Positions 1 through 58,438 of a DNA stretch of 60,743 nucleotides are shown one piece after another (the stretch's first letter is position 1; every line of letters begins with the position of its first letter). Origin of the DNA: Gemmatimonadaceae bacterium (GTDB lineage Bacteria; Gemmatimonadota; Gemmatimonadetes; Gemmatimonadales; Gemmatimonadaceae); assembly GCA_036496605.1 (NCBI GenBank), contig DASXKV010000040.1, forward strand, positions 1 through 60,743. The letters are read 5' to 3'. Made by a program: the position numbers and the translations under genes. Under the pieces are notes generated by a model. It searched no databases, had not been told where the DNA came from, and saw only the letters and a list, made by a program, of their open reading frames with translations.

Positions 1-588
1 CGCTGCCGGGCTCTTCTCTCGCCCGCCATCGTACGTGCCTAACGGCCCGTAGATGTTGTGGAAGCGCACCACCCGCGTCTCGAGCCCGTGGTCCTCGGTG
101 TAGTGCCGGCACTGGCGCTCGCTGAAGAGCTTCTCCCAGCCGTAGCCGTCCTCGGGATCGGCCGGATACGCGTCCGCTTCCTTGAGCGGCGTCACGTCCC
201 TGCTCGTCTGCTTGTAGCCGGGATAAATGCAGGCCGAGCTCGTGTAGAGATAGCGCTGAATCCCGTTCAGCCGCGCTGCCTCGAGCATGTGAATGTTGAT
301 CAGCACGTTGTCGTGCATGATCACGGCCTTGTTATGCTCGATGAACCCGATCCCGCCCATGTTGGCGGCGAGGTTGTAGACCTCGTCGATTCCGCGCGTC
401 GCTTGCAGGCAGTTACCCCAGCGCCGGAGATCCAGGAGCTCGAACTCGTCGGCCCGTGTCGGTTCGTACTCCGGCTCTTTGACGTCAACGCCGCGCACCC
501 AATAGCCCCGGTCTTTCAGGTAGCTCACCAAATGATGGCCGATGAAGCCGCCAGCTCCAGTCACCAATACACGGGTCTTCGCGCTCAT
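1..588 (-). CDS. GDP-mannose 3,5-epimerase homologue, C-terminus cut by window edge
   Basis: An extended short-chain dehydrogenase/epimerase that enters from the left edge, so only the first 196 residues are visible. The Rossmann glycine motif GAGGFIG is at residues 11-17. The stretch NLAANMGGIGFIEHN, the SSACIYP motif (Cys120) and the YGWEK motif (Tyr149, Lys153), followed by RFHNIYGPLGT, match plant GDP-mannose 3,5-epimerase closely. In that family the cysteine and the Tyr/Lys pair are catalytic. The family converts GDP-mannose to GDP-L-galactose and GDP-L-gulose; in bacteria this probably feeds surface polysaccharide. The ATG at 586-588 is the first in frame. A related NAD-dependent sugar epimerase could have a different substrate, but the motif set is specific. 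A CGTTAGGC octamer lies inside the gene (37-44). Confidence 0.85.
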   Translation of the reverse strand, partial: MSAKTRVLVTGAGGFIGHHLVSYLKDRGYWVRGVDVKEPEYEPTRADEFELLDLRRWGNCLQATRGIDEVYNLAANMGGIGFIEHNKAVIMHDNVLINIHMLEAARLNGIQRYLYTSSACIYPGYKQTSRDVTPLKEADAYPADPEDGYGWEKLFSERQCRHYTEDHGLETRVVRFHNIYGPLGTYDGGREKSPAA

Positions 589-823
589 GTGCTCAAAGAG
601 GAGAAGGGTTTCGAGTGTAAAGCAGCGCTCACGCGCGCTGTGCTGCACGCGGCATTCGTGATCACTAACTCATCTCGTGATCGGGCAAGGCGTGAGCTCT
701 TTTCGGGGTGCATTCCACCCCACCGTTGTGGCCCGGATGTGCAATCTCCGGGCCCGTCACCGGTTACGGTTCAGGGAAGCTCGACAGGTGCACGCTGTGA
801 TGCAGAGTGAACTGCACCACACG
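589..823. other. Intergenic region between hflX stop and the epimerase start
   Basis: I see no gene here. A short hairpin, GGGGTG-CATTC-CACCCC, lies at 705-721. On the minus strand it is followed by an A-rich rather than a T-rich tract, so it does not look like a standard intrinsic terminator. The region presumably holds the promoter of the epimerase gene, but I cannot pick out a convincing one. Confidence 0.4.
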
Positions 824-1978
824 TCAGATGGGCGTCGCGATGCCCCCGATGACCTCGGCGCCGGCGCGTCGAAGGCGGCCGGCGAGCGCGTCGTCGACGC
901 GCGCGCGAATGATGAGCTGATCGCCATCGGTACGCTGATCGACGACCTCACCACCACGATGAATCTCCGCGAGCAATTTCCCGTCACCAGCTGAGAATCT
1001 GATCTCGGTGAGCGGTCGACGCGCGCGAATGGCTGAGCCCAGCGCACGTCGCAATGGCTCGAGGCCGCCATCGTGAACAGCCGAGACGAATACGGCGCCC
1101 TTCACGAGCCGGCCGATGCGCTCCTGCAACGCGAGCAGTTCCTCCTCGCTCAGGAGGTCGGTCTTGTTGAACACGAGCAGCTGCGGCCGGTCTCCGACGC
1201 CCAGCTCCTCGAGGACCTGCTCGACGACGAGGCGCTGGTCTTCCCACAGCGGCTGACTCGCATCGATCACGTGGAGGAGCAGGTCGGCCTCGGCCGTCTC
1301 CTCGAGCGTCGCGCGGAACGATGCGACGAGATGGTGTGGGAGTTTTCGGATAAAACCGACGGTGTCGGTGACGAGCACCTTCGCCTCGCCGACGTCGACC
1401 TCGCGCGTGAGCGGATCGAGCGTCGCGAAGAGGCGGTCTTCGATGAAGATGTCTTGCCCGCCGCCCGTGAGGCCGGACAAGATCGACGATTTGCCCGCAT
1501 TCGTGTAGCCGACGAGCGAAGCCTTGAATGCGCGCTGTCGCGATTGCCGCTGGACGACGCGTCCTTTCTGTACGTCGCGGAGGCGCTCCCTGAGGAGCTT
1601 GATGCGATGGTTGATGAGCCGCCGGTCCGTCTCGAGCTGCGTCTCACCGGGGCCGCGCATGCCGATGCCGCCCCGGAATTTCTCGAGGTGGGTCCACATT
1701 CTCGTCAGGCGCGGCAGCATGTACTCGAGCTGCGCGAGCTCGACCTGCATTTTCGCTTCGGCCGTGCGCGCGCGCGTCGCGAAGATGTCGAGGATGAGTT
1801 CCGCGCGGTCGACGACGCGCTGGCCCACGGCGTCCTCGATGTTCTTCCCCTGCGACGGCGACAGCTCGTCGTCGAAGATCACGAGCGACGCATTCCGGTC
1901 CGCCACCATGTCGCGCAGCTCGTCGATCTTCCCGGAGCCGAGGTACGTGCCGGGGTGACGCTTGTCGAGCTGTTGCAT
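824..1978 (-). CDS. hflX: GTPase HflX (start codon problematic)
   Basis: HflX is a ribosome-associated GTPase that splits or rescues stalled 70S ribosomes. The family signature GMRGPGETQLETDRR is near residues 106-120. The G domain follows: P-loop GYTNAGKS at 157-164, DTVG and NKTD. The coordinates start at the only ATG/GTG/TTG in frame. However, 54 open codons upstream, back to the TGA of the preceding gene (2141-2143), encode the conserved HflX N-terminal strand and helix, including RAVLVGAPLKRAG. The real start is therefore probably near 2137, where the first plausible codon is ATC (reading M-AKEPIDIG). See findings. Its role and identity are secure; the 5' end is not. Confidence 0.9.
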   Translation of the reverse strand: MQQLDKRHPGTYLGSGKIDELRDMVADRNASLVIFDDELSPSQGKNIEDAVGQRVVDRAELILDIFATRARTAEAKMQVELAQLEYMLPRLTRMWTHLEKFRGGIGMRGPGETQLETDRRLINHRIKLLRERLRDVQKGRVVQRQSRQRAFKASLVGYTNAGKSSILSGLTGGGQDIFIEDRLFATLDPLTREVDVGEAKVLVTDTVGFIRKLPHHLVASFRATLEETAEADLLLHVIDASQPLWEDQRLVVEQVLEELGVGDRPQLLVFNKTDLLSEEELLALQERIGRLVKGAVFVSAVHDGGLEPLRRALGSAIRARRPLTEIRFSAGDGKLLAEIHRGGEVVDQRTDGDQLIIRARVDDALAGRLRRAGAEVIGGIATPI

Positions 1979-2608: not shown

Positions 2609-2620
2609 TGGAACCTCTGA

Positions 2621-2690
2621 TAGGTGATTGGTCGTTGGTGATTGGTTGCTGGTGGTTCATGACTACCGATCGCCAACCACCAATCACTGC
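2621..2690. repeat. Heptad array GGTnnTT with inverted complement
   Basis: Five consecutive 7-bp units run from 2623 to 2657: GGTGATT, GGTCGTT, GGTGATT, GGTTGCT, GGTGGTT. A complementary stretch AACCACCAATCAC follows at 2675-2687, after about 17 bp. The right arm overlaps the stop codon of rarA. It lies between rarA and the LEA lipoprotein, so it would be transcribed as a hairpin. The same design with different unit sequences recurs elsewhere in the window. Confidence 0.7.
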
Positions 2691-4030
2691 TCCGCCTTGC
2701 GCTTCAGCTCCTCCCACCAGGCCATGCGCTTCGCGATCTCGCGCTCGAATCCGAATTTCCCCGGTTCGTAGAACGTCGCGCCGCGCAACGACTCGGGCAG
2801 ATACTCCTGAGGAATGTACGCCTCCTCAGCATCGTGCGCATACTGGTACCCCTGGTGATAACCCAGTTCCTTCATCAGCGGCGTCGGAGCATTCCGGATG
2901 TGCAGGGGTACGGGTTCGGCTGGGTGTGATTGGGCCGCTTCCAGCGCCGCACCGAGCGCGCGCTTCGCGCTGTTCGACTTTGGTGCGGTCGCGAGATACA
3001 CGATCATCTCGGCCAGCGGTAAATATCCCTCTGGCGGCCCCAGATGGTGAAATGCATCGCGTGCGGCGACGGCAATCTTGAGCGCTTCCGGGTCAGCGAG
3101 TCCGATGTCCTCAGCCGCCATGGCGAGCGAGCGGCGAAACATGATCATGGGGTCCGCACCACCTTCGATCATACGCGCCATCCAATAGAGTGCGCCCTGT
3201 GGATCGCTACCGCGCAGGCTCTTGTGAAAGGCGCTGAGCATGTTGTACGTCTCTTCCCCGCCCTTGTCGTATCGCGCGAAGCGGAGCTGCAGCGCGTCGC
3301 GCGCGACGTCGACGGTGATGGTGCCACCGGCACCGACGTGCGTTGCCGCCGCCTCGAGCGCCGTCAACGCGCGCCGCGCATCGCCGTCAGCCTGCTCGGC
3401 GATCAGGCCTAACGAGTCCGGCTCGGCGTTCAGCTCCATCGCTCCGAGGCCGCGGTCGCGATCCTCGAGCGCACGCACGAGCAAGCCCTTGATGGCGTCG
3501 CGCGAGAGTGATTGCAGCACGAACACCCGCAGCCGGGAGAGCAGCGCACCGTTGATCTCGAACGATGGATTCTCGGTCGTGGCGCCGATGAGCGTGATCG
3601 TGCCCGCCTCGACGTGCGGGAGAAACGCGTCCTGCTGCGCCTTGTTGAATCGATGAATCTCGTCGGCAAAGAGAATCGTCCCTCGGCCGAGCCGGCGGCG
3701 CCCTTCCGCTTCGTGCACGATCTCGCGCACGCGCGGCACTCCTTCGGTGACGGCCGAGAATGAAACGAACTCGCGATCGGTGTAACGCGCGATCATGCGC
3801 GCGAGTGTCGTCTTGCCGGAGCCGGGCGGACCCCAGAAGACCATCGACATCACGTCGCCGCGCTCGATTGCCTCGCGCAATGGTTTCCCGGGGGCGAGTA
3901 GGTGCTCCTGCCCGACAAACTCGTCGAGCGAGCGCGGACGTATGCGCGCCGCGAGCGGCTCCGGCGTCCGCGCGGCAAAGAGCGACTCGTTCTGATCGTC
4001 GCCGCGACCTCTCGATCTGCGATCAGGCAC
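2684..4030 (-). CDS. rarA: Replication-associated recombination protein A (RarA/MgsA)
   Basis: A 448-residue AAA+ ATPase of the RarA/WRNIP1/clamp-loader family, which acts at stalled replication forks. Visible motifs are Walker A GPPGSGKT at 67-74, Walker B ILFADEIHRF at about 119-128, sensor 1 IGATTENPSF, and the C-terminal region with HHLGPPEGYLPLAE and a DAEEAY-IPQEYLP segment typical of RarA. The length is normal. The GTG start (4028-4030) is preceded by AGGATGACAGCTG. The 3' end abuts a heptad-repeat hairpin. A CGTTAGGC octamer in frame supplies a TTA codon (3407-3414). Confidence 0.93.
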   Translation of the reverse strand: MPDRRSRGRGDDQNESLFAARTPEPLAARIRPRSLDEFVGQEHLLAPGKPLREAIERGDVMSMVFWGPPGSGKTTLARMIARYTDREFVSFSAVTEGVPRVREIVHEAEGRRRLGRGTILFADEIHRFNKAQQDAFLPHVEAGTITLIGATTENPSFEINGALLSRLRVFVLQSLSRDAIKGLLVRALEDRDRGLGAMELNAEPDSLGLIAEQADGDARRALTALEAAATHVGAGGTITVDVARDALQLRFARYDKGGEETYNMLSAFHKSLRGSDPQGALYWMARMIEGGADPMIMFRRSLAMAAEDIGLADPEALKIAVAARDAFHHLGPPEGYLPLAEMIVYLATAPKSNSAKRALGAALEAAQSHPAEPVPLHIRNAPTPLMKELGYHQGYQYAHDAEEAYIPQEYLPESLRGATFYEPGKFGFEREIAKRMAWWEELKRKAEQ

Positions 4031-5483: not shown

Positions 5484-5511
5484 GGGGCTAGGGGCTAGGG
5501 GCTAGGGGCTA
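5484..5511 (+). repeat. GGGGCTA x4 heptad array (G-quadruplex capable)
   Basis: There are four perfect tandem copies of the 7-mer GGGGCTA. On the plus strand this gives four runs of four G separated by 3-nt loops, an ideal intramolecular G-quadruplex pattern. The third unit contains the TAG stop codon of cca on the minus strand. The same unit recurs at 22836-22890 and 22957-22990. Confidence 0.85.
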
Positions 5512-6803
5512 GTCTCCGTCGCGATGCGTTGGGCTTCTTGCAATAGCCAGTCCCTGCTGTTGCGACTCGGGTCCTCGAGCACGGCCTCGAGTAATGCGTT
5601 CAGTATCTTACCAACCAGAGGGCTTGGCGGTATCCCTGCAACGCGAAGGTCGTCGCCGTCGAAGGCGAGATCGGCGATCTCGATCGGATCGGTTTGCGCC
5701 GCGCGGAGCATGCGCCGATACAGCGAGCGCAATCGAGATTGCAATACTCGATCGTCGGGATGACGCGCCGCCATGGAGGCGGCGGCGATCCGCATGAAGG
5801 GAGCGAGATCCAGCCGTCCGATCGCAGCGACCCAGCGTCGCAGCTGCGAGTCGGACACCGGCAGACGCTCCACAAGCGCGTCCCCCAGTCTCGCACCGAT
5901 CTCGCTCCACGTCTCCGCAAGCTCGGCGACGCGACGGATCTCGGCGCGCGGGAATCGAAGCGCGGTCATTGCCTCACGTGCCCGCGATTCTCCGAGCTCG
6001 ACGAAGAGTGCGGCGACACGTGTGAACAATCTGAAGGCTTTTGGCGCGAGCGTCGGTAGCGGAAGGAGATCCAGCGCGGCGAGGATGTCGTCGCCGACGT
6101 TCGCGAGCAATGGGATCACCGTCGCCAACACGCCCGTGCTCTTCCACCGCGCGAGTGCGCGACCAGGCCGCGTGACCTGGTCCATCGTCTTCTCGAGCTC
6201 CTGCTTCACCCGCTCGGGCGACAGGCGGCCCATGTGCGGCGCGCTGCGCTCGATTGCCGCAAGGGTGTTACCCTCGATGTCGAACTCGAAGCGCGCGGCA
6301 AACCGAATTGCACGCAATGCGCGGAGCCGATCCTCGCGCATGCGCGCGTCCGGATCGCCGACTGCGCGCACGACACGTCGGCCGAGGTCCGCGCGACCAT
6401 CAAACGGATCGCGGAGCTCGTCGCGTGAGGGCGAATAGGCGATGGCGTTGATGGTGAAGTCGCGGCGCGCGAGATCCTCCTCCAGCGTCGCGCCGAATTC
6501 GACCTCGGCGTGCCGGCCGTCTGTTTTGATGTCTCGGCGGAACGTCGTCACCTCGTGCAGCGTGCCCTGGCCATCGAGGACGCCGACGGTTCCGAACTGA
6601 ATGCCGACGGGAATCGTACGTCGCTTGCCGAAGACTTCGCGCACCTGCTCGGGCGTTGCCGACGTCGCGAAATCCCAGTCCAGATGGGGATGACCGAGTA
6701 TCGCGTCGCGCACGGCACCGCCGACGCACCACGCCTCGTAGCCCGACTCCTCCAGGCGTCGGGCGATGCCGAGCACAGGCTCCGGTGGACGCAAAAGGGA
6801 CAT
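5502..6803 (-). CDS. cca: CCA tRNA nucleotidyltransferase / poly(A) polymerase family
   Basis: A 433-residue class II nucleotidyltransferase. The catalytic N-terminus has VGGAVRDAILGHPHLDWDF: the GG motif at 28-29 and the DxD carboxylates at Asp42 and Asp44. It also has EVTTFRRD, the RRDFTINAIAY motif, and the DPFDGRADL and REDRLRALRAIRFAARF motifs. These match bacterial CCA-adding enzymes or poly(A) polymerase I. The CCA-adding role (repair or completion of tRNA 3' ends) is most likely as no other copy is seen, but family members cannot be separated safely by eye. There is no HD domain signature, so it is the short form. The stop codon lies inside a GGGGCTA array. Confidence 0.88.
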   Translation of the reverse strand: MSLLRPPEPVLGIARRLEESGYEAWCVGGAVRDAILGHPHLDWDFATSATPEQVREVFGKRRTIPVGIQFGTVGVLDGQGTLHEVTTFRRDIKTDGRHAEVEFGATLEEDLARRDFTINAIAYSPSRDELRDPFDGRADLGRRVVRAVGDPDARMREDRLRALRAIRFAARFEFDIEGNTLAAIERSAPHMGRLSPERVKQELEKTMDQVTRPGRALARWKSTGVLATVIPLLANVGDDILAALDLLPLPTLAPKAFRLFTRVAALFVELGESRAREAMTALRFPRAEIRRVAELAETWSEIGARLGDALVERLPVSDSQLRRWVAAIGRLDLAPFMRIAAASMAARHPDDRVLQSRLRSLYRRMLRAAQTDPIEIADLAFDGDDLRVAGIPPSPLVGKILNALLEAVLEDPSRNSRDWLLQEAQRIATETSP

Positions 6804-7418: not shown

Positions 7419-8387
7419 TCACTGCTCGAAAAGAGCACGGATCTCCACGTTGGTGAGCTGAGCCCCTAACGCCAACATCAGATCGATCCGGGCCTGCTGC
7501 GGTCTGCGGCTGCCGGCGAGGATGGCACCGCGTTCGTGCAGCCGGCGCGCGCCGCCTGGGTAGCCGTAGGTTCGGCCGACGCGGCCACGCTGGACTCGTG
7601 AGGCAATGATCACCGGCTTGCCCTCGTCGTGCCAGCGATCGATCCCTTCGATCATCGCCGGGGGAACGTTGCCTCGGCCCATGCCGGCGAGCACCACGCC
7701 GCGAGCGTCGCGTCGCGAGGCGTCGAGGAGCCGCGAATCGGATCCGGCCCAGGCGTAAACGATATCGACGGGACCGCCGAGCTCCCGCGGGCTGAGGGCC
7801 GGCTGCAACTCGGGCAGCGCGCGGCGGAATACGACCTGTCCGTCGTCCACGACGCCTAACGGTCCGAGGCCGGGACTCTCGAAGGCGTCGACGGCATGCG
7901 TGTGGGTCTTGGTCACGTCCAGAGCCGAGAATATTCGGTCGCACATAGCGACGAGGACTCCGAAGCCCGCGGTCGACTCACTTGCCGCCACGCGAACGGC
8001 GGCGCCGAGATTTGCCGGACCGTCCCAGCCAAGGTCGCTCGCCGTGCGCATTGCGCCGGTGAAGACGACGGGCTTCGACGCGTCCAGCGAGCGCGCCGCG
8101 AGATACGCCGATTCCTCGAGCGAGTCGGTCCCGTGCGTCACGACGATGCCCTGCACTTCGCTCCTGCCAAGTTGTTCGGCGATGGCATTGCGGAGCGCCC
8201 ACATGCGGTCGGTCGTCATGTGAGGCCCGGGGTACGCGCCGAAGTCGACGATCTCCACGTCCGCGATCTTCTCGATCGCCGGCGCAAGTGCAAGGATGTC
8301 GCGCCCCGACATCGACGGGACCGCGCCGCCACTCGCCGGATCGTGGCGCATCGAGATCGTTCCGCCAGTGAAGAGGAGAACGATCAT
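7419..8387 (-). CDS. Asparaginase family protein (L-asparaginase)
   Basis: A 322-residue asparaginase/glutaminase. It has both catalytic threonine motifs: TGGTIS with Thr10, and VVTHGTDSLEESA with Thr87-Asp88. It hydrolyses L-asparagine to aspartate and ammonia. No signal peptide is visible, so it acts in the cytoplasm like type I enzymes. The start ATG overlaps the stop of the upstream SDR gene (ATGA), placing it last in gmhA-SDR-asparaginase. Two octamer-like sites lie inside: 7854-7861 exact, and CCCTAACG near the 3' end. Confidence 0.87.
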   Translation of the reverse strand: MIVLLFTGGTISMRHDPASGGAVPSMSGRDILALAPAIEKIADVEIVDFGAYPGPHMTTDRMWALRNAIAEQLGRSEVQGIVVTHGTDSLEESAYLAARSLDASKPVVFTGAMRTASDLGWDGPANLGAAVRVAASESTAGFGVLVAMCDRIFSALDVTKTHTHAVDAFESPGLGPLGVVDDGQVVFRRALPELQPALSPRELGGPVDIVYAWAGSDSRLLDASRRDARGVVLAGMGRGNVPPAMIEGIDRWHDEGKPVIIASRVQRGRVGRTYGYPGGARRLHERGAILAGSRRPQQARIDLMLALGAQLTNVEIRALFEQ

Positions 8388-9139
8388 CCGACGAGCACAC
8401 TACCGCCGTTGACGTTGAGAATCTCGCCAGTGATGTGGCGGCCGAGGTCGGAGCAGAGAAAGACGATCGGACCGGCGATGTCGCGAGGATGAGCGACGCG
8501 TCCAAGTGGAATCGAAGCCGCGATACGATCGCGGCCGCCGGCGGCGAACGGCTCCTCGCACATCTCCGTGTCGACCCAGCCTGGCGCAACGCTGTTGACG
8601 GTGATGCCGCGCTTCGCGAGCTCGATGCACAACGATTTCACATACGAGATCATTGCGCCTTTCGAGGCGGCATAGTCGGCGTGATAGGCTTCGCCGCGCT
8701 GTCCGGCGGTGCTCGACACGAGCACGATGCGTCCGCCGTCGGACATCGAGCGCGCCGCGGCGCGCGTCGTGTAGAACATCGAGTCGACGTTCTCCATCAT
8801 CGTGCGCCGCCAGCGGCTGTCGTCCATGTCGGCGACCGGAACGTCGTCGGTGGGCCAGATGCCGGCGTTACCGACGAAGAAGTCCAGGCCGCCGAGGTCC
8901 TTGGCCGCGCTCCGAATCAGCAACTCCGATCCATCACGCGAGCCGATGTCTTGAGCATATGCGAATGCCCGCACGCCGGCGGCTTTCGCCTGCTCGACGA
9001 TGCGCACCGCGTCCTCCTTCCGCGATCGATACCCGATGGCCACATCGACGCCGTACTCGGCGAACAACAGCGCTGTCGCCGCGCCGATGCCGCGCGACCC
9101 GCCCGTCACCAACGCGCGCTTGCCGCGAAGAGCGTTCAC
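8384..9139 (-). CDS. SDR family oxidoreductase, FabG-like
   Basis: A 251-residue classical short-chain dehydrogenase. The cofactor motif TGGSRGIG is at 12-19, NAG is at 91-93, and the catalytic set is Ser142/143, Tyr156 and Lys160 (Y-A-A-S-K). The C-terminus, ITGEILNVNGGSVLVG, is the usual FabG ending. 3-Oxoacyl-ACP reductase is the default reading. Placement between a phosphosugar isomerase and an asparaginase, away from fab genes, leaves the substrate open; sugar or polyol oxidation is possible. It overlaps both neighbours by 4 nt (ATGA on the asparaginase side, GTGA-type on the gmhA side), so all three are probably made from one mRNA. Confidence 0.85.
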   Translation of the reverse strand: MNALRGKRALVTGGSRGIGAATALLFAEYGVDVAIGYRSRKEDAVRIVEQAKAAGVRAFAYAQDIGSRDGSELLIRSAAKDLGGLDFFVGNAGIWPTDDVPVADMDDSRWRRTMMENVDSMFYTTRAAARSMSDGGRIVLVSSTAGQRGEAYHADYAASKGAMISYVKSLCIELAKRGITVNSVAPGWVDTEMCEEPFAAGGRDRIAASIPLGRVAHPRDIAGPIVFLCSDLGRHITGEILNVNGGSVLVG

Positions 9140-9711
9140 AGCGTTCGCTCCACGAGGTCGCAGATGATGTGCTCGATGCAGAGATGCATCTCCTGCGCGC
9201 GATCCGTCCGGTCGGTCGGAATGATCACGGAGTGGTCGGCCAGCTCGAGCAGTGGACCGCCGTCGCGCGCGCTGAACGCAAGCACGGGAATGCCTCGATC
9301 ACGGGCCGCCTCGGCGGCACGGAGCACGTTAGGCGACGCGCCGCTCGTCGAGTGGATGATCAGGAGATCACCCTCCTTCGCCAGCGCCTGAATCTGTCGC
9401 GCGAACACGTGCTCGAAGCCGAAATCGTTGCTGGCGGCGGTGAGGAGCGAGCTATCGGTCGTCAGCGCAATGGCCGGATACGCTCGCCGGTTTCGCATGT
9501 AGCGGACGACGTATTCGGTGGCGAGGTGCTGGGCATCGGCGGCGCTGCCGCCATTGCCACAAAAGAACAACGTTCCGCCGGCGCGAACGGTGTCCTCGAC
9601 GAGTCCGAGCGCGACGTCTAGCTGGGCGCCGAGCTCGTCGGCGACACGGTTGGCGAGGGTCGCGAGATCGCGCAGCGCGTAGGTGAATTGCGCTCCGGGT
9701 GTCGACGTCAA
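9136..9711 (-). CDS. gmhA: Phosphoheptose isomerase (SIS domain)
   Basis: A 191-residue single-domain SIS isomerase. The signature CGNGGSAADAQHLATEYV starts near residue 51, followed by AIALTTDSS and STSGASPNVLRAA. These are the phosphate-binding and active-site loops of GmhA/DiaA proteins. GmhA turns sedoheptulose 7-phosphate into D-glycero-D-manno-heptose 7-phosphate for the LPS inner core or other heptose glycans. The TTG start at 9711 gives a normal length. DiaA (a DnaA-binding paralogue) is the alternative, but the full catalytic residues favour an enzyme. A CGTTAGGC octamer (9327-9334) encodes the SPNV tetrad within the SIS domain. Confidence 0.82.
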   Translation of the reverse strand: MTSTPGAQFTYALRDLATLANRVADELGAQLDVALGLVEDTVRAGGTLFFCGNGGSAADAQHLATEYVVRYMRNRRAYPAIALTTDSSLLTAASNDFGFEHVFARQIQALAKEGDLLIIHSTSGASPNVLRAAEAARDRGIPVLAFSARDGGPLLELADHSVIIPTDRTDRAQEMHLCIEHIICDLVERTL

Positions 9712-9777
9712 CGTTCGTATTGGACTGAGGTGGAAGCAGCAGGAGTTGTGAGCACGGGATACGTGTCGCTACGGTGC

Positions 9778-10533
9778 CTAACGGCTACCCAGCAGGAGCT
9801 CTTTGAGACGATCGAACACGCCGCGGCGACGGCCGATGGGCGGAACGGGTTCTATCGGCTCGTTCGCCAATAAGTGAGCCGCGTTTCGCCTCGTGAGCAA
9901 ATCCGCGGCGTCGTCCGCGCCGAGCTCGGTGAGCCAACGATGCGCGGGCAGCAGTGCGCGCGAGTCGCCGTGCGTGTCGCTCGCGAGGAGATCGACCAGG
10001 CCCTCCTCGAGGAGCGACGCGGCCACCGTCCCCTGCGGTCCGCTGGCGAAAACGCCGGCGACATCGGTCTGGATCACCGCCCCAACGCGCCGCCATTCCT
10101 CGACGCGCTCCACCGTGCATCCCCAGTAGCGTTCAGGGTGTGCGAGCACGGGGACGATGCCGCTCATCCTGAGCCGAAAGAGCTCTTCCGACGCGTTAGG
10201 CGGGATCATCATGCGCGGGAACTCGACGAGGACCGCACTCGAGCCGCCGAGCGACAGCCGCCGGTCGCGCAGGTCGGCACCGGGCTGATCGAGCATGATT
10301 TCCCAGCCGAGCTTGAGCTCCGGGCTCTCGACGGCGGCGGCTCGAAGTGAGGCGAGAATCTCGAGATGGCGCTCGTACGGCGCGGCCGCGGCGCGTGATG
10401 CGTCCAGATGCGGCGTGCAGACGACGATCTGTACGCCGTCGGCGGCGAAGCGCGCGAGGATCGGGATGGAGACATCGGCCGAGGGTGATCCGTCGTCGAC
10501 GCCGGGAAGCAAGTGCGTGTGTACGTCGATCAT
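9778..10533 (-). CDS. PHP-type tyrosine-protein phosphatase (CpsB/CapC/YwqE family)
   Basis: A 251-residue protein beginning MIDVHTHLLPGVDDG, the metal-binding HxH motif (His5, His7) of PHP-fold phosphatases of the CpsB/CapC/YwqE family. Further ligand regions are CTPHLD, VLAHPERY and SDTHGDSR. These Mn2+-dependent enzymes dephosphorylate tyrosine kinases that control capsule or exopolysaccharide export. No BY-kinase or export gene is in the window. The gene ends in an octamer: its last codon and stop read CGT TAG GC (9776-9783). It starts 3 bp after the stop of the upstream hypothetical gene. Confidence 0.88.
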   Translation of the reverse strand: MIDVHTHLLPGVDDGSPSADVSIPILARFAADGVQIVVCTPHLDASRAAAAPYERHLEILASLRAAAVESPELKLGWEIMLDQPGADLRDRRLSLGGSSAVLVEFPRMMIPPNASEELFRLRMSGIVPVLAHPERYWGCTVERVEEWRRVGAVIQTDVAGVFASGPQGTVAASLLEEGLVDLLASDTHGDSRALLPAHRWLTELGADDAADLLTRRNAAHLLANEPIEPVPPIGRRRGVFDRLKELLLGSR

Positions 10534-10536: not shown

Positions 10537-10872
10537 TCAGGCGTCGGGCGAGGTCGGCTCTCCCGCCAGTGCTCCGAGCCGCGTCATCGCGGCCGTGGCG
10601 CGGTCATCGAGTTTCGCGATGTCAGCGGCCGCCGCTTCGAAGGCATAAGTGACGAGTGCGTCGGCCGCGAGGAGATCGATCGCCGAGTCCCGTCCGAGGG
10701 CATCAGGCTGCAAGAGTCGCTCGAGCAGCCCGGTCGCCGCATCGAGGCAGAGCGCGGCTGCGCGTGACGCGTCGTCCTCGGCGCGCCGGCCTAACGCCTC
10801 GACGATTCGCTCCATCAGCGCGGGCGGCGGGGCGGGCGTCCGCGATCGCAGCCAGTCGAGCAGCGTCATCAC
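10537..10872 (-). CDS. Hypothetical protein, 111 aa, alpha-helical
   Basis: I do not recognise this small protein. It is rich in Ala and Leu, with no signal peptide, and is predicted to be almost wholly helical: LMERIVEALGRRAEDDAS, AALCLDAATGLLERLL and AADALVTYAFEAAAADIAK look like amphipathic helices. It overlaps alaS by 4 nt (ATGA) and is followed after 3 bp by the cpsB-like gene, so it is translationally coupled to both. Its position in an alaS operon is its only functional clue. It carries a CGTTAGGC octamer at 10789-10796, which puts a TTA codon in frame. Confidence 0.65.
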   Translation of the reverse strand: MMTLLDWLRSRTPAPPPALMERIVEALGRRAEDDASRAAALCLDAATGLLERLLQPDALGRDSAIDLLAADALVTYAFEAAAADIAKLDDRATAAMTRLGALAGEPTSPDA

Positions 10873-13710: not shown

Positions 13711-14012
13711 TCAGAAGTCGCTCGCTGGCGCTCGCTCGAAGCCGATATGGAGTCGCTCGCGCTGTGCGCTCGCTCCCGCTCCTCTCGCCTTTATTGTGCT
13801 CAGATCTCGATGGCAGGAGCGGAGTCGAGTCTCGATAGCAGGAGCGGAGTCCGGAGGGGCAGCTATGGCGATACTGCCATCCTATCGACCATGCCTAACG
13901 GCGTAGGGGCGATGGCAGTATCGTCATAGTGCCCCGGAGCGGCTCCGCTCCCGCGATTGCACGCACGGACGCACGGACGCACGGAACACAACCGCCCTGA
14001 GCGACTCCGCAG
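13711..14012. repeat. Repeat-rich intergenic region, including a 44-bp inverted repeat
   Basis: No gene is visible. The region holds tandem CGCTCG-rich sequence (13717-13785), a direct repeat of GGCAGGAGCGGAGT / AGCAGGAGCGGAGT (13812 and 13837 onward), and a large imperfect inverted repeat with arms at 13838-13881 and 13911-13954. The 29-bp loop between the arms contains the octamer GCCTAACG (13893-13900), the only clearly intergenic copy. Three tandem 8-mers ACGCACGG follow at 13961-13984. Together with the alaS palindrome, it separates recX from alaS. Confidence 0.75.
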
Positions 14013-16179: not shown

Positions 16180-16550
16180 CCCGATCGTGCGACTTTGAAC
16201 GCGTCTTCGACGTGACGGACGCGAACGCGCTCACCGCTCATGAGGACACCGATTACGTCGAAGCGGTATGACTCCTCCGCGCGACCATGGCGGTCGATCC
16301 AGACCTGGGCGGATTTCGCTAATTCCTTCTGCTTCCGCCAGTTGACCGCTTCTATGGGCTGTCCGAACCGATCGCCGCGCCGCGCTTTCACCTCGACGAA
16401 GGCGATGGTTCCTTCCCGTTCGACGACGAGATCGATGTCCCGGTGGCCGGAACGAAAACGCCGCTGAATGACCCGCCAGCCCGTACGCCGAAGCCACCGC
16501 TCCGCGATTCGCTCGCCCAGCTCTCCGAACGCCTGCTTGGTCGCTGACAT
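16176..16550 (-). CDS. yraN: YraN family (UPF0102) endonuclease-like protein
   Basis: A 124-residue protein of the YraN/UPF0102 family with a restriction-endonuclease fold. The order [19 protein letters not shown], then [29 protein letters not shown], gives the D...E-V-K nuclease-like core (Asp in GHRDIDLV, Glu and Lys in VEVKAR). The cellular role is not settled; it is linked to DNA processing. The ATG at 16550 is preferred because it leaves the typical few residues before GELGE; a TTG at 16592 overlapping the upstream stop is the alternative. It lies directly before recA. Confidence 0.85.
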
Positions 16551-16588
16551 GGCCGCCAACCTACGGCGGCCGCCGGTCGGCTCCGGTA

Positions 16589-17404
16589 TCAAACTCCCGC
16601 GCTTGGGTGCGAATCAGCGACGTCCGTCTGGAGCTCGTTCCGAGCCCGGAGCATCACTGCGGGATCATTCGTGACAATCCCTTGAATCCCCGCGCTCCAC
16701 AGGCGTTTGGCGACGCCTGGGTCATCGATGGTCCAGACGTGCGTAACCGCTCCGCCGCGCCGGGCGACTCGAGCGAGCCGTGTTACCGGAAGACGAATCC
16801 CGCGGTACCAGCGCGGAATGCATAACGCGTCGTACGGCAGTCGGTGCGAAGCCTCGGCCCACAGCGTCTCCCAGAGTAATCGCACCACGTCGGCGCCCGA
16901 CGCGCCGGTCGCAAGCGCGCGTCCGCGGAATGGCGCGACCGCGTCATGGGTCATCGAGGCGATGACCGACCGATGCATGGCGTCGCCACCGATCAGCGCT
17001 CGCTCGACTGCCTCGAGCGCGCCAGGCACCTTCACCTCGATGAGCAACGGAAGCTCTGGAAATCGCTTCAGTACGTCGTCCAGCCTCGCGATCGTTAGGC
17101 CGCGGCCGCGAAAGGGATACGTCGAGCCGCCGTCGCTGGTGAACGTTGCTCCCACGTCCACGCGTTCGAGCTCGGCAGTGGTCATCTCGGCGACAACTCC
17201 GGCGCGACCTGCGGTGCGCGCCAGGGTTGGATCGTGAATGACGACGGGAACGCCGTCGCGAGTGATCCGGACGTCGAACTCGAGCGCGTCGACGCCTAAC
17301 GCGGCTGCCTGGTCGAACGATTCGATCGTGTTCTCGGGTGCGTGAGCCGCGTTGCCGCGGTGCCCGATCACCAGCCGCGCGCCGAGATCAGTGAGCGGGT
17401 TCAC
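16589..17404 (-). CDS. Glycerophosphodiester phosphodiesterase
   Basis: A 271-residue GDPD-family TIM barrel. The signature IGHRGNAAHAPENTIESF gives His15, Arg16, Glu24 and Asn25. Then comes LEFDVRITRDGVPVVIHDPTL with the metal-binding Glu/Asp pair and the second catalytic His. The C-terminal VTHVWTIDDP and GIVTNDPAVM are also typical. It hydrolyses glycerophosphodiesters to glycerol 3-phosphate and an alcohol. There is no signal peptide, so it is cytoplasmic, UgpQ-like. It has a GTG start. Two octamers lie inside, one per strand (17093-17100 and 17294-17301). Confidence 0.9.
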   Translation of the reverse strand: MNPLTDLGARLVIGHRGNAAHAPENTIESFDQAAALGVDALEFDVRITRDGVPVVIHDPTLARTAGRAGVVAEMTTAELERVDVGATFTSDGGSTYPFRGRGLTIARLDDVLKRFPELPLLIEVKVPGALEAVERALIGGDAMHRSVIASMTHDAVAPFRGRALATGASGADVVRLLWETLWAEASHRLPYDALCIPRWYRGIRLPVTRLARVARRGGAVTHVWTIDDPGVAKRLWSAGIQGIVTNDPAVMLRARNELQTDVADSHPSAGV

Positions 17405-17426
17405 CCGGCTCCCGGCCCTTGGCGCG

Positions 17427-18239
17427 TCAGTGCGGGAGACGCGCGCTCGTCGGCACCAGCGCCGGGCTGTCGCTCTGCGCCAGGGTGCGCACGAGGGTTG
17501 CTCCGAGCTCCGGGAGCACCTGCTCGGCGCGAACGACGATCTGTCCCTGCTTCGTGACCCAGAGCCGCTCGGACGCGCGCTCCGCCTCGAGAGACACGAT
17601 CCAGCAGTCGAAGTCTCCTGCGGGAACCGTCACGTGCTCTTCGCCCTCGACGGAGAGCGTCGCGGGCGTCAGCGTCGACCCGCCGGCATCGATGACAATC
17701 AGCGACGCAGAGTCTCGCCACGTCGCCGACAGCGGGAGCGACGCGAGTACCACGTCGACCGCCATGGTGTTGACGAGCAGATCTCCGCGGTTCGCCAGCA
17801 CGACGTTGTGCCTGCCCAACGGCGACGTCATCGCCCCGAAAATGCTGTCTGGTGTGAACTCGGCCGCGACGCTAGCCAAGCCATGCACGGAAACCCAGTG
17901 CAGCGGCCTCAGATCGTCGAGCCGCACGACGAGTGTATCACTCGTGAGCGCGACACCTTCCATTCCGTTGCGCGTGAGCAGGAGCGTCGGCGTTCCAGCA
18001 TAGTCGAGCGTGGACACGACAAAGCGCTGATCTCCGATTGGAGAGCTTGCACTGTCGCGCATCAGGCTCAGCTGATACAGGAATTGAGCAGGCTGTATGC
18101 GGGTCGAATCGAAAACGAGTCGATGCGAAACGCTGTCTACGTGCGGCGGTGTGGCAACGGCAGCCGTTTGCGCAGTCGCCGTCTCGATCGCAAAACCGAG
18201 CGCGGAGAGTGCGAGCGCGCATAGGAGGGACCGTCGCAT
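17427..18239 (-). CDS. Secreted protein with DUF3108-like C-terminus
   Basis: A 270-residue exported protein. The N-terminus MRRSLLCALALSALGFAIETATAQ is a signal peptide with a probable cut after AQ near residue 24. The remainder is beta-rich. The C-terminal part has PAGDFDCWIVSLEAE followed by RLWVTKQGQIVVRAEQVLPELGATLVR, which resembles the DUF3108 pattern, in which a conversion-factor beta strand is followed by W-V-D/T-x-x-x-x-x-V. The function is unknown; such proteins are periplasmic. The ATG at 18239 is preferred over a GTG 36 nt upstream because it opens the signal peptide directly. It follows ftsK by about 50 bp. Confidence 0.65.
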   Translation of the reverse strand: MRRSLLCALALSALGFAIETATAQTAAVATPPHVDSVSHRLVFDSTRIQPAQFLYQLSLMRDSASSPIGDQRFVVSTLDYAGTPTLLLTRNGMEGVALTSDTLVVRLDDLRPLHWVSVHGLASVAAEFTPDSIFGAMTSPLGRHNVVLANRGDLLVNTMAVDVVLASLPLSATWRDSASLIVIDAGGSTLTPATLSVEGEEHVTVPAGDFDCWIVSLEAERASERLWVTKQGQIVVRAEQVLPELGATLVRTLAQSDSPALVPTSARLPH

Positions 18240-40685: not shown

Positions 40686-40690
40686 GCTGC

Positions 40691-48952: not shown

Positions 48953-49684
48953 TTAACGCAGCCGAGGATCGAATTTGAACGTGACCGGCAGCGATTCATC
49001 AGTATAGCCACTCGGAAGCGGCCCGAAGGCTTTCGCATTCGCCGCGGCCTCGACGGCGCCCTGGGCGTCCGCGTCGAAGGAATAGGCACCGGATCGTGTC
49101 ACGATCTGGATGCCCTTCACCGATCCATCGCGGTTGATGATGAAGAAGACCTCCGCATGGAGCGCGCCCCGTGAGGAAGTTTTAAACCGAAGGGCGATCT
49201 GCCGGACGATGTTCTCGAGGTACCCGGGGTATGGGAAATCGATCCCGCCTGTGCTCACCGTCACAACGTCAGTGCCGCGGCCGCCTTCCTCACCGCCAGC
49301 GGCGGTGGTTGGCGTTTTCGTCGCGGGCTTTGTTTCGGTCGGCAAGGTTGGGGTTGCCTCGGTGGCCGCCGCTTTTTTTGACGGTTTTGCCGTGGGGACC
49401 GGCATTTCGTGAGGCGCGATCTTTGGCCGCACGGGCGGAGTAGGCGGTGTCGACGTCGGCGCCACAGGCTGCACGACACCGACGTTGCGCGGCCCGGGCG
49501 GCGCGGCGAGGAGATCGACGCGGTACACGGGCGGCGAGGGCGGCGGCGCGGTTGGGCGAAGAAGAAAGAACAAACCGATCAGCAATCCATGAAGAAGGAG
49601 CGAGCCGGTGAACGGACCCGCGAGCATCGGTCTCGCGTTAGGCAAGAGCGACTCTTGTTGACGCGCGCCACTCGGCGACGTCAC
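48953..49684 (-). CDS. TolA/TonB-like energy transducer, short form
   Basis: A 243-residue protein with one N-terminal membrane helix (GSLLLHGLLIGLFFLL, about 27-42), a Pro/Thr/Lys-rich spacer (about 45-130), and a C-terminal TonB/TolA-like domain containing FPYPGYLENIVRQIALRF, AEVFFIINRDGSVKGIQIV and a closing LPVTFKFDPR. Position between tolR and tolB makes it TolA in function. It lacks the long Ala/Lys coiled coil of E. coli TolA, and its C-terminal domain is of the TonB subtype. It has a GTG start overlapping the tolR stop (GTGA). Confidence 0.85.
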   Translation of the reverse strand: MTSPSGARQQESLLPNARPMLAGPFTGSLLLHGLLIGLFFLLRPTAPPPSPPVYRVDLLAAPPGPRNVGVVQPVAPTSTPPTPPVRPKIAPHEMPVPTAKPSKKAAATEATPTLPTETKPATKTPTTAAGGEEGGRGTDVVTVSTGGIDFPYPGYLENIVRQIALRFKTSSRGALHAEVFFIINRDGSVKGIQIVTRSGAYSFDADAQGAVEAAANAKAFGPLPSGYTDESLPVTFKFDPRLR

Positions 49685-50115: not shown

Positions 50116-50865
50116 TCAGATCTGTCCCTCGCGCACGAGCAACGCAATCGTCGCGGTGCCGAAGCTCTCCATCATGCCGTCGAAGCGATTCAGACGGCCC
50201 GCGAAGATGTTGTAGCCGAACGTCGCGGGAATGGCGACGACGAGCGCCGCTGCCGTCGCGATGAGCGCTTCGGCAACGCCCGGGGCCACCGCCGACAGAT
50301 TGCCGGAGCCTTTCGTCGCGATGCCGATGAACGCGTCGATGACGCCGAGGACGGTACCGAGAAGTCCGATGAGTGGGCTCACCGAGGCGATCGTCGCCAG
50401 CCACGGAAGAAATCGTCCGAGCCGGTCACGCTCGGTCGAAGCGTCGGTCTCGAGGAGCAGGTGCAGCGTCTCGATCTGCGATCCGCTCAGCGTCGCCATC
50501 GCCGGCGCGCGAACGGCGACGTCGCCCGAGTCACGCTCGCGCGTCTGCTGATTGCGAACGCGCGTATCGGAAACGAAGTGCGCCGCGCGCATGAAGAGCC
50601 GTGTGAGCGCGTTAGGCGCCGTGACTTTGGCGAGCGCACCGGCCTCTTCGAGGCGCGTCGCGCGCTCGAAGTCGCGGAAGAAACGCAGCGACGTCCGTTG
50701 CGCGCGCGCCAGCTCGCGCCAGAGCGCGAACATCATTGCCCAGCTCAGGAGCGAAAGCAACGCGAGGATGACGAGAACCACCTTCGTCAACATCGTCGCG
50801 CCAGTGATCAACTCGATCGGCGTCGCCGGCACTGCGCCACGAATCTGCAGTATCGCAGCGATCAT
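50116..50865 (-). CDS. tolQ: MotA/TolQ/ExbB proton channel family protein
   Basis: A 249-residue inner-membrane protein with three main hydrophobic segments: TKVVLVILALLSLLSWAMMFAL (about 27-48), WLATIASVSPLIGLLGTVLGVIDAF (about 150-174) and AEALIATAAALVVAIPATFGYN (about 196-217). The central GLLGTVLGVIDAF and AEALIATAAAL motifs are typical of TolQ/ExbB. The ATG at 50865 overlaps the epimerase stop (ATGA). An octamer (50610-50617) encodes APNA in the cytoplasmic loop. It opens the Tol-Pal gene set. Confidence 0.93.
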   Translation of the reverse strand: MIAAILQIRGAVPATPIELITGATMLTKVVLVILALLSLLSWAMMFALWRELARAQRTSLRFFRDFERATRLEEAGALAKVTAPNALTRLFMRAAHFVSDTRVRNQQTRERDSGDVAVRAPAMATLSGSQIETLHLLLETDASTERDRLGRFLPWLATIASVSPLIGLLGTVLGVIDAFIGIATKGSGNLSAVAPGVAEALIATAAALVVAIPATFGYNIFAGRLNRFDGMMESFGTATIALLVREGQI

Positions 50866-51872
50866 CGCCGCGCTCCCGTTCCTTTCGCCGCGGACGGCGC
50901 TGCTTCCCGCGTCGTTTTTCCGTGCCGTTCGGCGAACCATGCCAACGTGCGCGAGAGCCCTTCCTCGAGCGACGCTTTCGGCCGCCAACCGAGGAGCGAC
51001 CCAGCCTTCGAGATGCTGACCACGGATCGCTGCTGCTCGCCGGGTCGTTTGGGCAATGGTTCGACCAGCACGTCGGAGCGCGCCACTCGCTTGAGCACGC
51101 GCGCCAGCTCGGTGACGCTCGTCTCGACGCCTGTGCCGACGTTGAAGGCGCGCGCATCGAGACGTTCCGGCCTCGGGAGCGAATGCGTACCGGCCAGCGC
51201 CGTGGCCTCGGCGACGTCGCCGACGAAGACGTAGTCGCGCGTTTGAGAGCCGTCGCCGAACACGGATAGTGGACGGCCATCCAGGATGCGACCGCAGAAG
51301 ATTGCGACGACGCCCGCCTCGCCATGCGGATCCTGACGCGGGCCGTACACATTCGCGAACCGGACGCACACCGTGTCCATGCCGTGCACGCGCGCGTAAT
51401 ACGCCAGGTAATACTCGGCGCTGAGCTTCGCGATGCCGTACGGCGACTCGGGGTCCTTCGCGTAGTTCTCGACGTTAGGCGGGTCGACGAAGTCACCGTA
51501 CAACGCGCCCCCCGTCGACGAGAAGACGAATCGCGTCCGCCCGCCACGACCGCTCTGCCGCAGCGCCTCCACGAGGTTCAGCGTGCCGCCGATGTTGATG
51601 CTCGCATCCATTGCCGGGTCGGCGACGCTCTTGCGGACGTCGATCTGCGCCGCGAGATGAACGATCACGTCGTACGGCGTCTGCTTGACCAGCTGCGCCG
51701 CCTCGGGCGAGCGAATGTCGAGCTCGTGCAGGCGCACGCGTGGGTCGACGTTCTCGCGGCGCCCGGTCGAGAAGTTATCGAGGACGTCCACCGCATAGTC
51801 GCGAGCGAGGAAGACGTCCGCGACGTGCGAGCCAATGAACCCGGCGCCCCCGGTGACTAGTACACTCGGCAC
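50862..51872 (-). CDS. NAD-dependent epimerase/dehydratase, UDP-glucose 4-epimerase-like
   Basis: A 336-residue extended SDR. TGGAGFIGSH is at 7-16, VIHLAAQIDVRKS follows, SSTGGALYG supplies the catalytic Ser/Thr and YGIAK the Tyr-Lys pair, then VCVRFANVYGPRQDPHG and SQTRDYVFVGDVAEA. GalE-type activity on UDP-sugars is most likely; the closest pattern is UDP-glucose/UDP-N-acetylglucosamine 4-epimerases. The GTG start has AAAGGAG 9 nt upstream, set in the 13-bp spacer after hemA. Its place between hemA and tolQ is not an obvious functional link, though both it and Tol-Pal serve the envelope. Confidence 0.85.
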   Translation of the reverse strand: MPSVLVTGGAGFIGSHVADVFLARDYAVDVLDNFSTGRRENVDPRVRLHELDIRSPEAAQLVKQTPYDVIVHLAAQIDVRKSVADPAMDASINIGGTLNLVEALRQSGRGGRTRFVFSSTGGALYGDFVDPPNVENYAKDPESPYGIAKLSAEYYLAYYARVHGMDTVCVRFANVYGPRQDPHGEAGVVAIFCGRILDGRPLSVFGDGSQTRDYVFVGDVAEATALAGTHSLPRPERLDARAFNVGTGVETSVTELARVLKRVARSDVLVEPLPKRPGEQQRSVVSISKAGSLLGWRPKASLEEGLSRTLAWFAERHGKTTREAAPSAAKGTGARR

Positions 51873-55877: not shown

Positions 55878-56152
55878 AAAGCACTCCGGTTCGGTCGTGA
55901 TGTCCGAGATAAGCCGCACACAGAAGACGAATTGCCAGCGCGGAAGAAACGGGGTTGGCAGAGGGTTGAGGGTGGCGGGTGGTTCGTGCTTGGTGGTTGG
56001 TGGTTGGTGGTTGGTGGTTGGTGAAAAGGAATGGCCGGCGCAAAGCGCCGGCCTTCCGCACCACCAGTTACCAACGACCAATGACTCACCACCAGCCAAC
56101 AACCAATGACTCACCACCAGCCAACCACCGCCCACGAACGACCCGCCACCAA
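55878..56152. repeat. TTGGTGG heptad array, GC-rich hairpin and complementary CCACCAG array
   Basis: Four perfect TTGGTGG units and one variant run from 55990 to 56024. A perfect 9-bp hairpin GGCCGGCGC-AAA-GCGCCGGCC follows at 56033-56053. Then comes a complementary region of CCACCAG/CCAACC-type units (about 56059-56129), including two copies of CAATGACTCACCACCAGCC spaced 25 bp apart. It sits between ssb and the LysM gene. The unit is close to that of the smaller array near 2623. Confidence 0.85.
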
Positions 56153-57282: not shown

Positions 57283-57950
57283 GAGGGTGTCCCGTCCACT
57301 GGCAGCGGTTGGCCATGGGCCGCCTCCCATCGCATTTGCGCTTCCGCCTTACGCCCGTAGCCAGGCTCCCAATTGGCCAGGTCGATGGGCCCGCTTGCAG
57401 CGATAATCGATTCGAGAGCCATCGCGCCGCGAGCGTGAGGCGCGCGCTCGATCTTCTGCCCGCGTCCCATCGTTGTGGCGCCAAGGTTTCTCGCCACGTT
57501 CACGACATCCTGCTGGCTTATTAGACGCTCCGACATGAGGACTCCAATCGCTCCGCTCGCCTCGACCGAGTAGCCGGCAACGTACGCTTCACCTCGCAGC
57601 GCGTCGAGGACAGCGAGATATCGCCCCGGTCGCGGCTCGCCGTCACCGGCGGCAAGAAGTGCCAGCGAAGAGACCGCGTAGAGCGGACAACCGATGCCCA
57701 TCGCGATTCCCTTGGCGATGGACGCGGCGATCCGAAGGCTCGTGAAGCTTCCTGGACCAGCGCCGCACAGGACTCGAGACAGATCGCGCGCCATGACGCC
57801 CGCGCGCGAAATGGTCGCCGCGACCGCGGGCATCAGCGCCTCCGATTCGCGTCCTCGCATCGCCGCCTCGGCCTCGGCGAGGACGTGTCCGTCGCGCAAG
57901 ACAGCCGTGGTTCCGACGTACGTCGAGGCGTCGACGACGAGCGTGATCAC
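57279..57950 (-). CDS. tsaB: tRNA threonylcarbamoyladenosine biosynthesis protein TsaB
   Basis: A 223-residue TsaB (YeaZ family, ASKHA fold). VDASTYVGTTAVLRDG is the first strand pair; LCGAGPGSFTSLRIAASIAKGIAMG is the best-conserved stretch. It is an inactive paralogue of TsaD and forms TsaD-TsaB-TsaE, which makes t6A at position 37 of ANN-reading tRNAs. It has a GTG start overlapping tsaE (GTGA). TsaD is not in the window. Confidence 0.92.
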   Translation of the reverse strand: MITLVVDASTYVGTTAVLRDGHVLAEAEAAMRGRESEALMPAVAATISRAGVMARDLSRVLCGAGPGSFTSLRIAASIAKGIAMGIGCPLYAVSSLALLAAGDGEPRPGRYLAVLDALRGEAYVAGYSVEASGAIGVLMSERLISQQDVVNVARNLGATTMGRGQKIERAPHARGAMALESIIAASGPIDLANWEPGYGRKAEAQMRWEAAHGQPLPVDGTPS

Positions 57951-58438
57951 CCGTGATCTCCGAACTTTTGCTCGCCGACATGACCACCGGCATACAGAAG
58001 ACGCCGCGTCGGGTCCTCGGGAAGGTGCTGCAGGTGGATCGGCACGTGGTCGCTCGGAAGCAGATCACCCGCGCGCTCCGCCCACTCGATGAGGATCAGC
58101 GCATCCGACGCGAGAATCTCGTCCCAGCCGAGGTTCGGAAGCTCGTCCGGTCCGCGCAACCGATACAGGTCGAGATGAAACACGGGTGAGCGCGAACCCG
58201 AGAACTCGTGAACGAGTGTGAACGTCGGGCTGGTTATTTCGTTAGGCACGCCGTATCCGCGACAGATGGCGCGCGCGAGGGTTGTCTTTCCCGAACCGAG
58301 ATCGCCGCTGAGCGCGACCACCAGCGGAGGGCGCACGGCGCGCCCAAAGCGCTCTCCCCATTCGACGAGCTCGGACTCGGTGAGGGCGAGGTGTCCTCGC
58401 GCCGCGAGCGGCGGCACCGGCTGCCGATGGCCGTCCAT
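57947..58438 (-). CDS. tsaE: tRNA threonylcarbamoyladenosine biosynthesis ATPase TsaE
   Basis: A 163-residue P-loop ATPase. Walker A GDLGSGKT is at 45-52, then PTFTLVHEFSG (the family-typical switch), VFHLDLYRL and LILIEWAERAGDLLP with the conserved W-E/A pair. It hydrolyses ATP to reset the TsaBD complex. It follows uvrB by 15 bp. The stretch VPNEITSPTF contains an octamer (58240-58247) that encodes PNE. Confidence 0.93.
   Translation of the reverse strand: MDGHRQPVPPLAARGHLALTESELVEWGERFGRAVRPPLVVALSGDLGSGKTTLARAICRGYGVPNEITSPTFTLVHEFSGSRSPVFHLDLYRLRGPDELPNLGWDEILASDALILIEWAERAGDLLPSDHVPIHLQHLPEDPTRRLLYAGGHVGEQKFGDHG

Follow-up and report, generated by a model that had tools for sequence, protein, structure and literature searches.

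The 60,743-nt stretch analysed here (positions 1–60,743 of contig DASXKV010000040.1, assembly GCA_036496605.1, from a Gemmatimonadaceae bacterium; hereafter, the window) contains 19 exact copies of the octamer GCCTAACG or its reverse complement CGTTAGGC. All of them lie at the positions and on the strands given in an earlier note made from the sequence alone, which had proposed that the word resembles an uptake signature. Six plus-strand copies encode Leu-Gly through a TTA codon within minus-strand genes, namely those at 37–44 (gene 1–648), 3407–3414 (2684–4030), 7854–7861 (7419–8387), 10789–10796 (10537–10872), 17294–17301 (16589–17404), and 19449–19456 (18291–20654, FtsK family). Minus-strand copies are read as Leu-Thr four times, at 17093–17100 (gene 16589–17404), 21438–21445 (20727–21476), 27107–27114 (26276–27895), and 43065–43072 (42237–45209, LptD family), and as Pro-Asn five times, at 9327–9334 (9136–9711), 10194–10201 (9778–10533), 50610–50617 (50116–50865), 51473–51480 (50862–51872), and 58240–58247 (57947–58438). 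The frame counts agree with the earlier ones, including six Pro-Asn frames when an open reading frame (ORF) at 48953–49684 is counted. The plus-strand copy at 37651–37658 encodes Val-Arg in a minus-strand gene (36740–38428, urocanase), and that at 9776–9783 forms, as had been noticed before, the TAG stop codon of the minus-strand gene 9778–10533. The minus-strand copy at 49636–49643 is located just beyond the called gene 48953–49627 but within the longer ORF 48953–49684, and the plus-strand copy at 13893–13900 is intergenic and flanked by the two arms of an inverted repeat. It had been claimed that all copies except 13893 touch a gene; our simple gene caller places 17 of the 19 in contact with genes, the exceptions being 13893 and 49636, and the claim holds for the latter only if the longer ORF replaces the called gene. 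The inverted repeat around the 13893 copy (about 13865–13925) has 13-base arms, as seen by eye, and may represent a terminator or else a mobile palindrome of small size. Near matches of the word listed at 29458, 33210, and 37169 were also seen.

The window also contains a gene for a PilT/PilU family pilus ATPase (22997–24187, minus strand; NCBIfam TIGR01420, 443 bits against a cut-off of 319), which bears out the previous identification of PilT. The ATPase would be part of the general uptake machinery, and its link to the word is presumptive. An Rfam search of the window gave no match. Among 80 named relatives of the alanyl-tRNA synthetase encoded in the window, the closest carry the labels Gemmatimonadaceae or Gemmatimonadetes, which places the organism in Gemmatimonadota and very probably in Gemmatimonadaceae. 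Dinucleotide shuffles of the window yielded a mean of 0.88 copies of the word, and none of 100 reached 19. When the 8-mers of the window were ranked by order-3 z-score, the word was third, after two words derived from 7-base tandem arrays, and its density (0.31 per kb) is under the genome mean. Tandem arrays with 7- or 14-base units (GGGGCTA, AGAGGGT, CTGCCCT, GGTGGTT, and AGAACGGCGCGTCG) are located at 5484–5512, 22836–22992, 39981–40119, 40687–40829, 55971–56023, and 60585–60743; arrays of the GGGGCTA type recur elsewhere in the same genome and head its lists of 8- to 12-mers.

The genome from which the window is derived (G000; 5.97 Mb in 70 contigs) contains 1,750 forward and 1,661 reverse copies, or 3,411 in total, whereas the reversed word used as a control occurs 197 and 211 times (408). 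In 832 kb of this genome, to which the counts for G000 given below refer unless stated otherwise, 446 copies were found against 20.7 expected from an order-3 Markov model, and the word was the first of all 8-mers by z-score. The expectation that it would rank among the most over-represented words was thus borne out at order 3 but not at orders 5 and 6 (436 kb), where the octamer fell outside the top-12 list. Taken alone, the latter result counts against an excess; however, the octamer drops from these lists because its own 6- and 7-mers (CCTAAC and GCCTAAC), which represent the same signal, hold the excess. Permutation of synonymous codons within 671 called genes, which were predicted with a simple codon-usage caller of our own rather than a standard program, gave 17.1 copies (standard deviation, 4.2; maximum, 31 copies among 200 permutations) versus 385 observed, and this null settles that the excess exceeds composition. 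The question of whether TTA codons are mostly confined to the word was answered in the negative, as only 133 of the 439 TTA codons (30%) in the called genes lie within it, and the corresponding figure for CTA codons is 84 of 680.

The word is also conserved between related genomes. In an alignment of 135 kb between G000 and a genome of the same genus (G360; 75% identical), 54 copies could be compared, of which 32 were unchanged; the corresponding figures are 13.7% for all 8-mers, 1,472 of 9,912 for permuted words, and 21 of 131 for words with one mismatch. In a 46-kb comparison with G390, 10 of 18 copies were unchanged. In matched peptide contexts, the word was conserved in 29 of 48 cases and synonymous alternatives in 4 of 116 (p = 1.9e-15). 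Because this conservation goes beyond the peptide context, the word is preserved as DNA, and something must read it in that form. Chance or codon usage as the cause is ruled out by the synonymous shuffles together with the matched-context conservation. One-mismatch forms are represented unevenly in G000 (ACCTAACG, 81; GCATAACG, 81; GTCTAACG, 2; GCTTAACG, 4), as a reader with a defined tolerance would give. Furthermore, GCATAACG is typical of the genus of G000 (81 and 31 copies, compared with 1 in G200, 1 in G244, and 0 in G080 and its plasmids), whereas GCCTAACA is frequent in G244 (26 in 200 kb), G080 (22 in 250 kb), and G200 (12 in 82 kb) and occurs only 18 times in the 832 kb of G000. These genus-specific tolerated variants are dialects in the sense used for DNA uptake sequences (DUS).

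The word is preceded by a pyrimidine and, in the genus of G000, followed by a weakly preferred A; no flanking pattern beyond these 8–9 bases was seen in the 20 bases inspected. Genes are touched by 405 of the 446 copies (0.56 per kb in genes and 0.39 between genes), and the copies in genes occupy frames that avoid stops, with 24 of the 446 supplying or overlapping a stop codon. There is no gene-strand preference (181 versus 203), and an RNA-level signal is unlikely because the word is equally frequent on both gene strands. Terminator pairs were looked for and not found. The balanced orientation, which had been used as an argument against the polarity typical of Chi or of FtsK-orienting polar sequences (KOPS), holds to either side of a dnaA-like gene located on contig C4 of G000 (32/26 and 65/62). 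Since this gene was identified by eye from its translated sequence and the GC skew around it lacks a sharp switch, this test of polarity is good but not perfect. No clustering of the word at the dnaA-like gene was seen. Gaps under 200 bp are avoided (25 versus 46.8 expected; standard deviation, 6.5), and the number of copies per 10 kb is slightly over-dispersed. The longest word-free stretches contain, by eye, ordinary chromosomal genes and not foreign DNA.

To survey the distribution of the word, 395 genomes were drawn from the phylum Gemmatimonadota, and those with at least 150 copies and more copies than of the reversed-word control were regarded as motif-rich. In total, 24 genomes belong to this class: 17 from nine genera of Gemmatimonadaceae, six from another family of the order (two genera), and one from a third family. 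G037 and G121 have >150 copies but fewer than their reversed-word controls, and the remaining genomes have <100. The richest genomes contain about one copy per 1–2 kb. G229, which belongs to an otherwise motif-rich genus, has three copies, in a draft of 750 contigs. On an alanyl-tRNA synthetase tree of 51 rows chosen by us (G000, 29 genomes, and 21 named loci, the last scored on 9–23 kb only and including some near-copies of one another), the trait requires at least eight changes, five of which are forced by well-supported branches. This pattern would fit either an old word that was often lost or a word that arose several times. No rival dominant word of comparable strength was detected in samples of 40–100 kb from the motif-poor genomes G019, G021, G144, and G159. 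One copy (L152, 218–225, in G200:C2) lies in what is by eye a 16S rRNA gene and, with its flanks, would form a UAAC tetraloop.

Copies are not restricted to chromosomes. Three 50-kb stretches of two megaplasmids of Gemmatirosa kalamazoonensis KBS708 contain 30, 29, and 20 copies. In G080, 61 copies were counted in a 100-kb sample of the chromosome and 17 in 20 kb of a small contig. Contig L150 (G080:C1; 20,952 bp) repeats its first 60 bases at a distance of 14,997 bases and may therefore represent a circle of ~15 kb whose ends are repeated; a portion of this contig shows 80% identity to a Gemmatirosa megaplasmid. Phage records were collected from IMG/VR with patterns that demanded two copies within 30 bp, which yielded at least 222 loci; because close pairs were demanded, phages of the same hosts that lack the word would have escaped detection. 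Copies were counted over the whole record for 29 loci (14 + 15) picked by density or GC content. Six of these are dense: G395 (35 copies in 45.6 kb; terminase, portal, head protease, and tyrosine integrase), G396 (43 in 41.1 kb; head protease, replication initiator, a repressor-like gene, and a weak integrase match), G409 (21 in 31.6 kb; tail sheath), G410 (26 in 28.6 kb; head and tape-measure proteins), G415 (15 in 29.5 kb; terminase), and G414 (10 in 20 kb; tail sheath). G412 and G413 are also dense but under 8 kb, the rest are lower, and G411, a tandem array, was left out of the counts. In the six dense records, 76 of the 150 copies are forward, and these phages are as dense in the word as the host or denser. 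The four dense phages that were compared lack GCATAACG and contain GCCTAACA, like G244 and G080. Of the 19 copies in one stretch of G396, 8 provide stop codons, and the 79 other loci that contain a relative of a particular G396 gene hold no more than two copies each. The proteins of five dense phages gave a single match in the host DNA examined, on a Gemmatirosa megaplasmid. A word of the DUS or uptake signal sequence (USS) type is expected on temperate phages of the host; in keeping with this, an integrase was found in one of the six dense records of this biased scan and a repressor-like gene in another. A viral contig with a GC content of 0.54 contains a clustered array of the word (L562, 12141–12490) with spacings of 7–20 bases, which is apparently unrelated to the dispersed signal.

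Profile searches for integron integrases (IntI; 60 genomes), ComEC (60), GspH (43), DprA (44), and PilT (44) were performed on sets that we chose from the 395 genomes, and none of the five profiles separates motif-rich from motif-poor genomes. The competence machinery expected of a DUS or USS system is thus present in the form of ComEC, DprA, and PilT matches, yet it is uninformative: these genes are also found in motif-poor relatives and therefore do not discriminate. For the same reason, PilT in the window, which had been cited in favour of uptake, lends no special support, as PilT does not track the word.

Among the readings considered, the uptake signature suggested by the earlier note fits best and is partly supported. 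In its favour are the spacing of about one copy per 1–2 kb in the richest genomes, the balance between orientations, the tolerance within coding frames, the conservation as DNA, the dialects among genera, the patchy distribution, and the phages with integration or repressor genes that bear a host dialect. In our estimate, the odds are about even that YGCCTAACG serves certain genera of Gemmatimonadaceae as a self-DNA signal, most likely as an uptake sequence with an origin independent of those of Neisseriaceae and Pasteurellaceae; the chances are similarly poised that the word works like an uptake sequence, and membership of that class is not claimed. Uptake, the reader, and the cause of the losses are inferred, and the following course of events is proposed. 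A surface reader, for which a minor type IV pilin is the probable candidate, would bind the word on free DNA, word-bearing DNA would be imported by PilT-driven retraction and ComEC, and DprA and RecA would recombine it. Word-bearing alleles would be favoured in uptake, so that the word would accumulate where coding allows and be restored if lost. It would shift into dialects together with its reader, spread to resident plasmids and temperate phages, and decay once the reader was lost. Somewhat more tentatively, we propose that an uptake- or recombination-type self-DNA language with several dialects, repeated losses, and a protein reader may have arisen independently in Gemmatimonadota and may be carried by chromosomes, megaplasmids, and temperate phages.

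Several results weigh against an uptake sequence. The spacing of the word is overall no more even than random (coefficient of variation, 1.07 versus 1.03), none of the 25 pairs within 200 bp is an inverted pair <60 bp apart, and intergenic enrichment was not found, the density between genes being lower than that in genes. The word was not denser in sequence that is shared with a relative (0.43 versus 0.50 and 0.51 versus 0.51 per kb), a comparison that covers two regions and one relative only. ComEC matches were obtained in 53 of 60 genomes, DprA matches in 42 of 44, and PilT-family matches in all 44, motif-poor relatives included in each case; no ComEC match was obtained in the motif-rich drafts G257, G354, G357, and G168 and no DprA match in the motif-rich draft G360. 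A word-specific receptor was not found; GspH-type pilins are present in 36 of 43 genomes, both motif-rich and motif-poor. In addition, the presence of the word in phages and plasmids also fits other readings.

One such reading is a Chi-like signal, in which a helicase-nuclease of the RecBCD or AddAB type reads the word and switches from degradation to repair, to the benefit of chromosome, plasmids, and phages alike. The occurrence of the octamer on every replicon type examined, in phages at the density of the host or above, agrees with this. In E. coli phages that lack recombinases, the density of Chi rises to that of the host, and Chi is strong in phages of the T5 and P1 types (PMC3784561). 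However, Chi is described as polar along the chromosome (PMC8022716), whereas the word is distributed 32/26 and 65/62 around the dnaA-like gene, and Chi is about 2.3-fold over-represented in E. coli (PMC3784561), compared with about 20-fold for the word. Because we also found no comparable substitute word in the 40–100 kb samples of the four motif-poor genomes, no excess in shared DNA, and nothing in a crude Walker-motif pattern hunt for AddA/RecB in the sequence examined, a Chi-like role is considered unlikely. A HIP1-like origin, in which a methyltransferase and a linked mismatch-repair bias create and keep the word on all DNA replicating in the cell, seems slightly more doubtful. The word resides mainly in genes, is present on all replicons, and is lost in some relatives, as HIP1 is reported to be, but HIP words are palindromic (PMC4390886), and this word is not. 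Moreover, the enriched one-mismatch forms are specific and genus-dependent and include a transversion (GCATAACG), unlike simple decay.

It is no less doubtful that the word is a binding site of an abundant chromosome protein involved in nucleoid structure, replication, or segregation, or the mark by which a defence system spares word-bearing DNA. The word is dense, conserved as DNA, and present on every replicon type examined, which agrees with such a role, but it shows neither polarity nor clustering at the dnaA-like gene, and its near-complete absence from sister genera would be odd for a structural function. By far the least probable explanation is that the word is the core box of the attC recombination sites of integron gene cassettes, even though the 7-mer GCCTAAC/GTTAGGC matches the attC core consensus and integron integrases were detected above the cut-off in 34 of 60 genomes. 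In motif-poor genomes, mostly one-strand runs with copies ~300–2,000 bp apart (G002:C43, G255:C14, G138:C5, and G114:C2) and copies near integron integrase genes (L183 of G027, and L218 at 16426–19010) may represent attC arrays, so that attC may explain some of the few copies there. As a general cause, attC is refuted, because in motif-rich genomes copies are single, in conserved genes, and on both strands, and it does not account for the thousands of copies there. The arrangement typical of attC, a stem between two core boxes within arrays of cassettes, was not found; a crude finder gave only two overlapping candidates, corresponding to one site, in 40 kb around two integrases of G000, and the integrases are as common in motif-poor genomes. 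Since the 7-base core of the word is identical to the attC core box, and integron integrases are common in the family, one may conjecture that gene cassettes carry the tag for free.

Dispersed self-DNA words tied to uptake are known from two families, both in the phylum Pseudomonadota. A further case from a distant phylum, unrelated to these two, would if true make the origin and turnover of such words and the identity of the reader testable, in a family in which the word has been retained, altered, or lost from genus to genus; the cultured Gemmatirosa kalamazoonensis makes an experiment feasible. Should the word prove to be Chi- or HIP1-like instead, it would be an unusually strong, lineage-specific signal. 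In metagenomes, the word may also help to recognize DNA that belongs to plasmids and phages of these soil bacteria. Among the matches listed in openly licensed full texts, no description of the word in these bacteria was found. Signals of this kind are known, but this particular word, its presence in the phylum, and its extension over these replicons appear new.

Compared with known systems, the word shares its 7-base core (GCCTAAC/GTTAGGC) with the attC core box, but attC requires two boxes and a stem in a cassette, whereas copies of the word are single and located inside genes. HIP1 (GCGATCGC) of cyanobacteria is likewise a highly iterated octamer that has been lost in some relatives (PMC4390886); however, it is described there as a palindrome tied to methyltransferases, whereas the word is non-palindromic and has dialects. 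Chi (GCTGGTGG) of E. coli and its relatives is also an over-represented octamer found on phages (PMC3784561), but it is polar on the chromosome and about 2-fold enriched, whereas the word is balanced and about 20-fold enriched. DUS of Neisseriaceae, which are read by the pilin ComP, are, according to PMC3630211, short, asymmetric, spaced at approximately one per 1–2 kb, found on both strands, tolerated in genes, and divided into genus-level dialects, all of which resembles the word; with about 1,900 DUS in 2.2–2.3 Mb (PMC3630211), the density of the word is within the range reported. The two differ in that word and phylum are unrelated and that no inverted terminator pairs, intergenic enrichment, or core bias were seen here. 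In Neisseriaceae, low DUS content has been used to find mobile islands, but one element is known to hold about 34 DUS within 32 kb (PMC7371117). The USS of Pasteurellaceae resemble the word in density, in dialects, and in their build-up in temperate phages of the host, and are described as denser in core genes (PMC6776037), an excess that the word, with its 8–9 bases and no flanking pattern, does not show. According to the same study, almost all prophages of Pasteurellaceae collect the USS dialect of their host, as described for Haemophilus USS, whereas large, probably lytic phages are poor in USS (PMC6776037). The dense phages described above, which at first looked contrary to an uptake sequence, therefore fit such a reading, because Pasteurellaceae prophages collect the USS of their hosts in the same manner.

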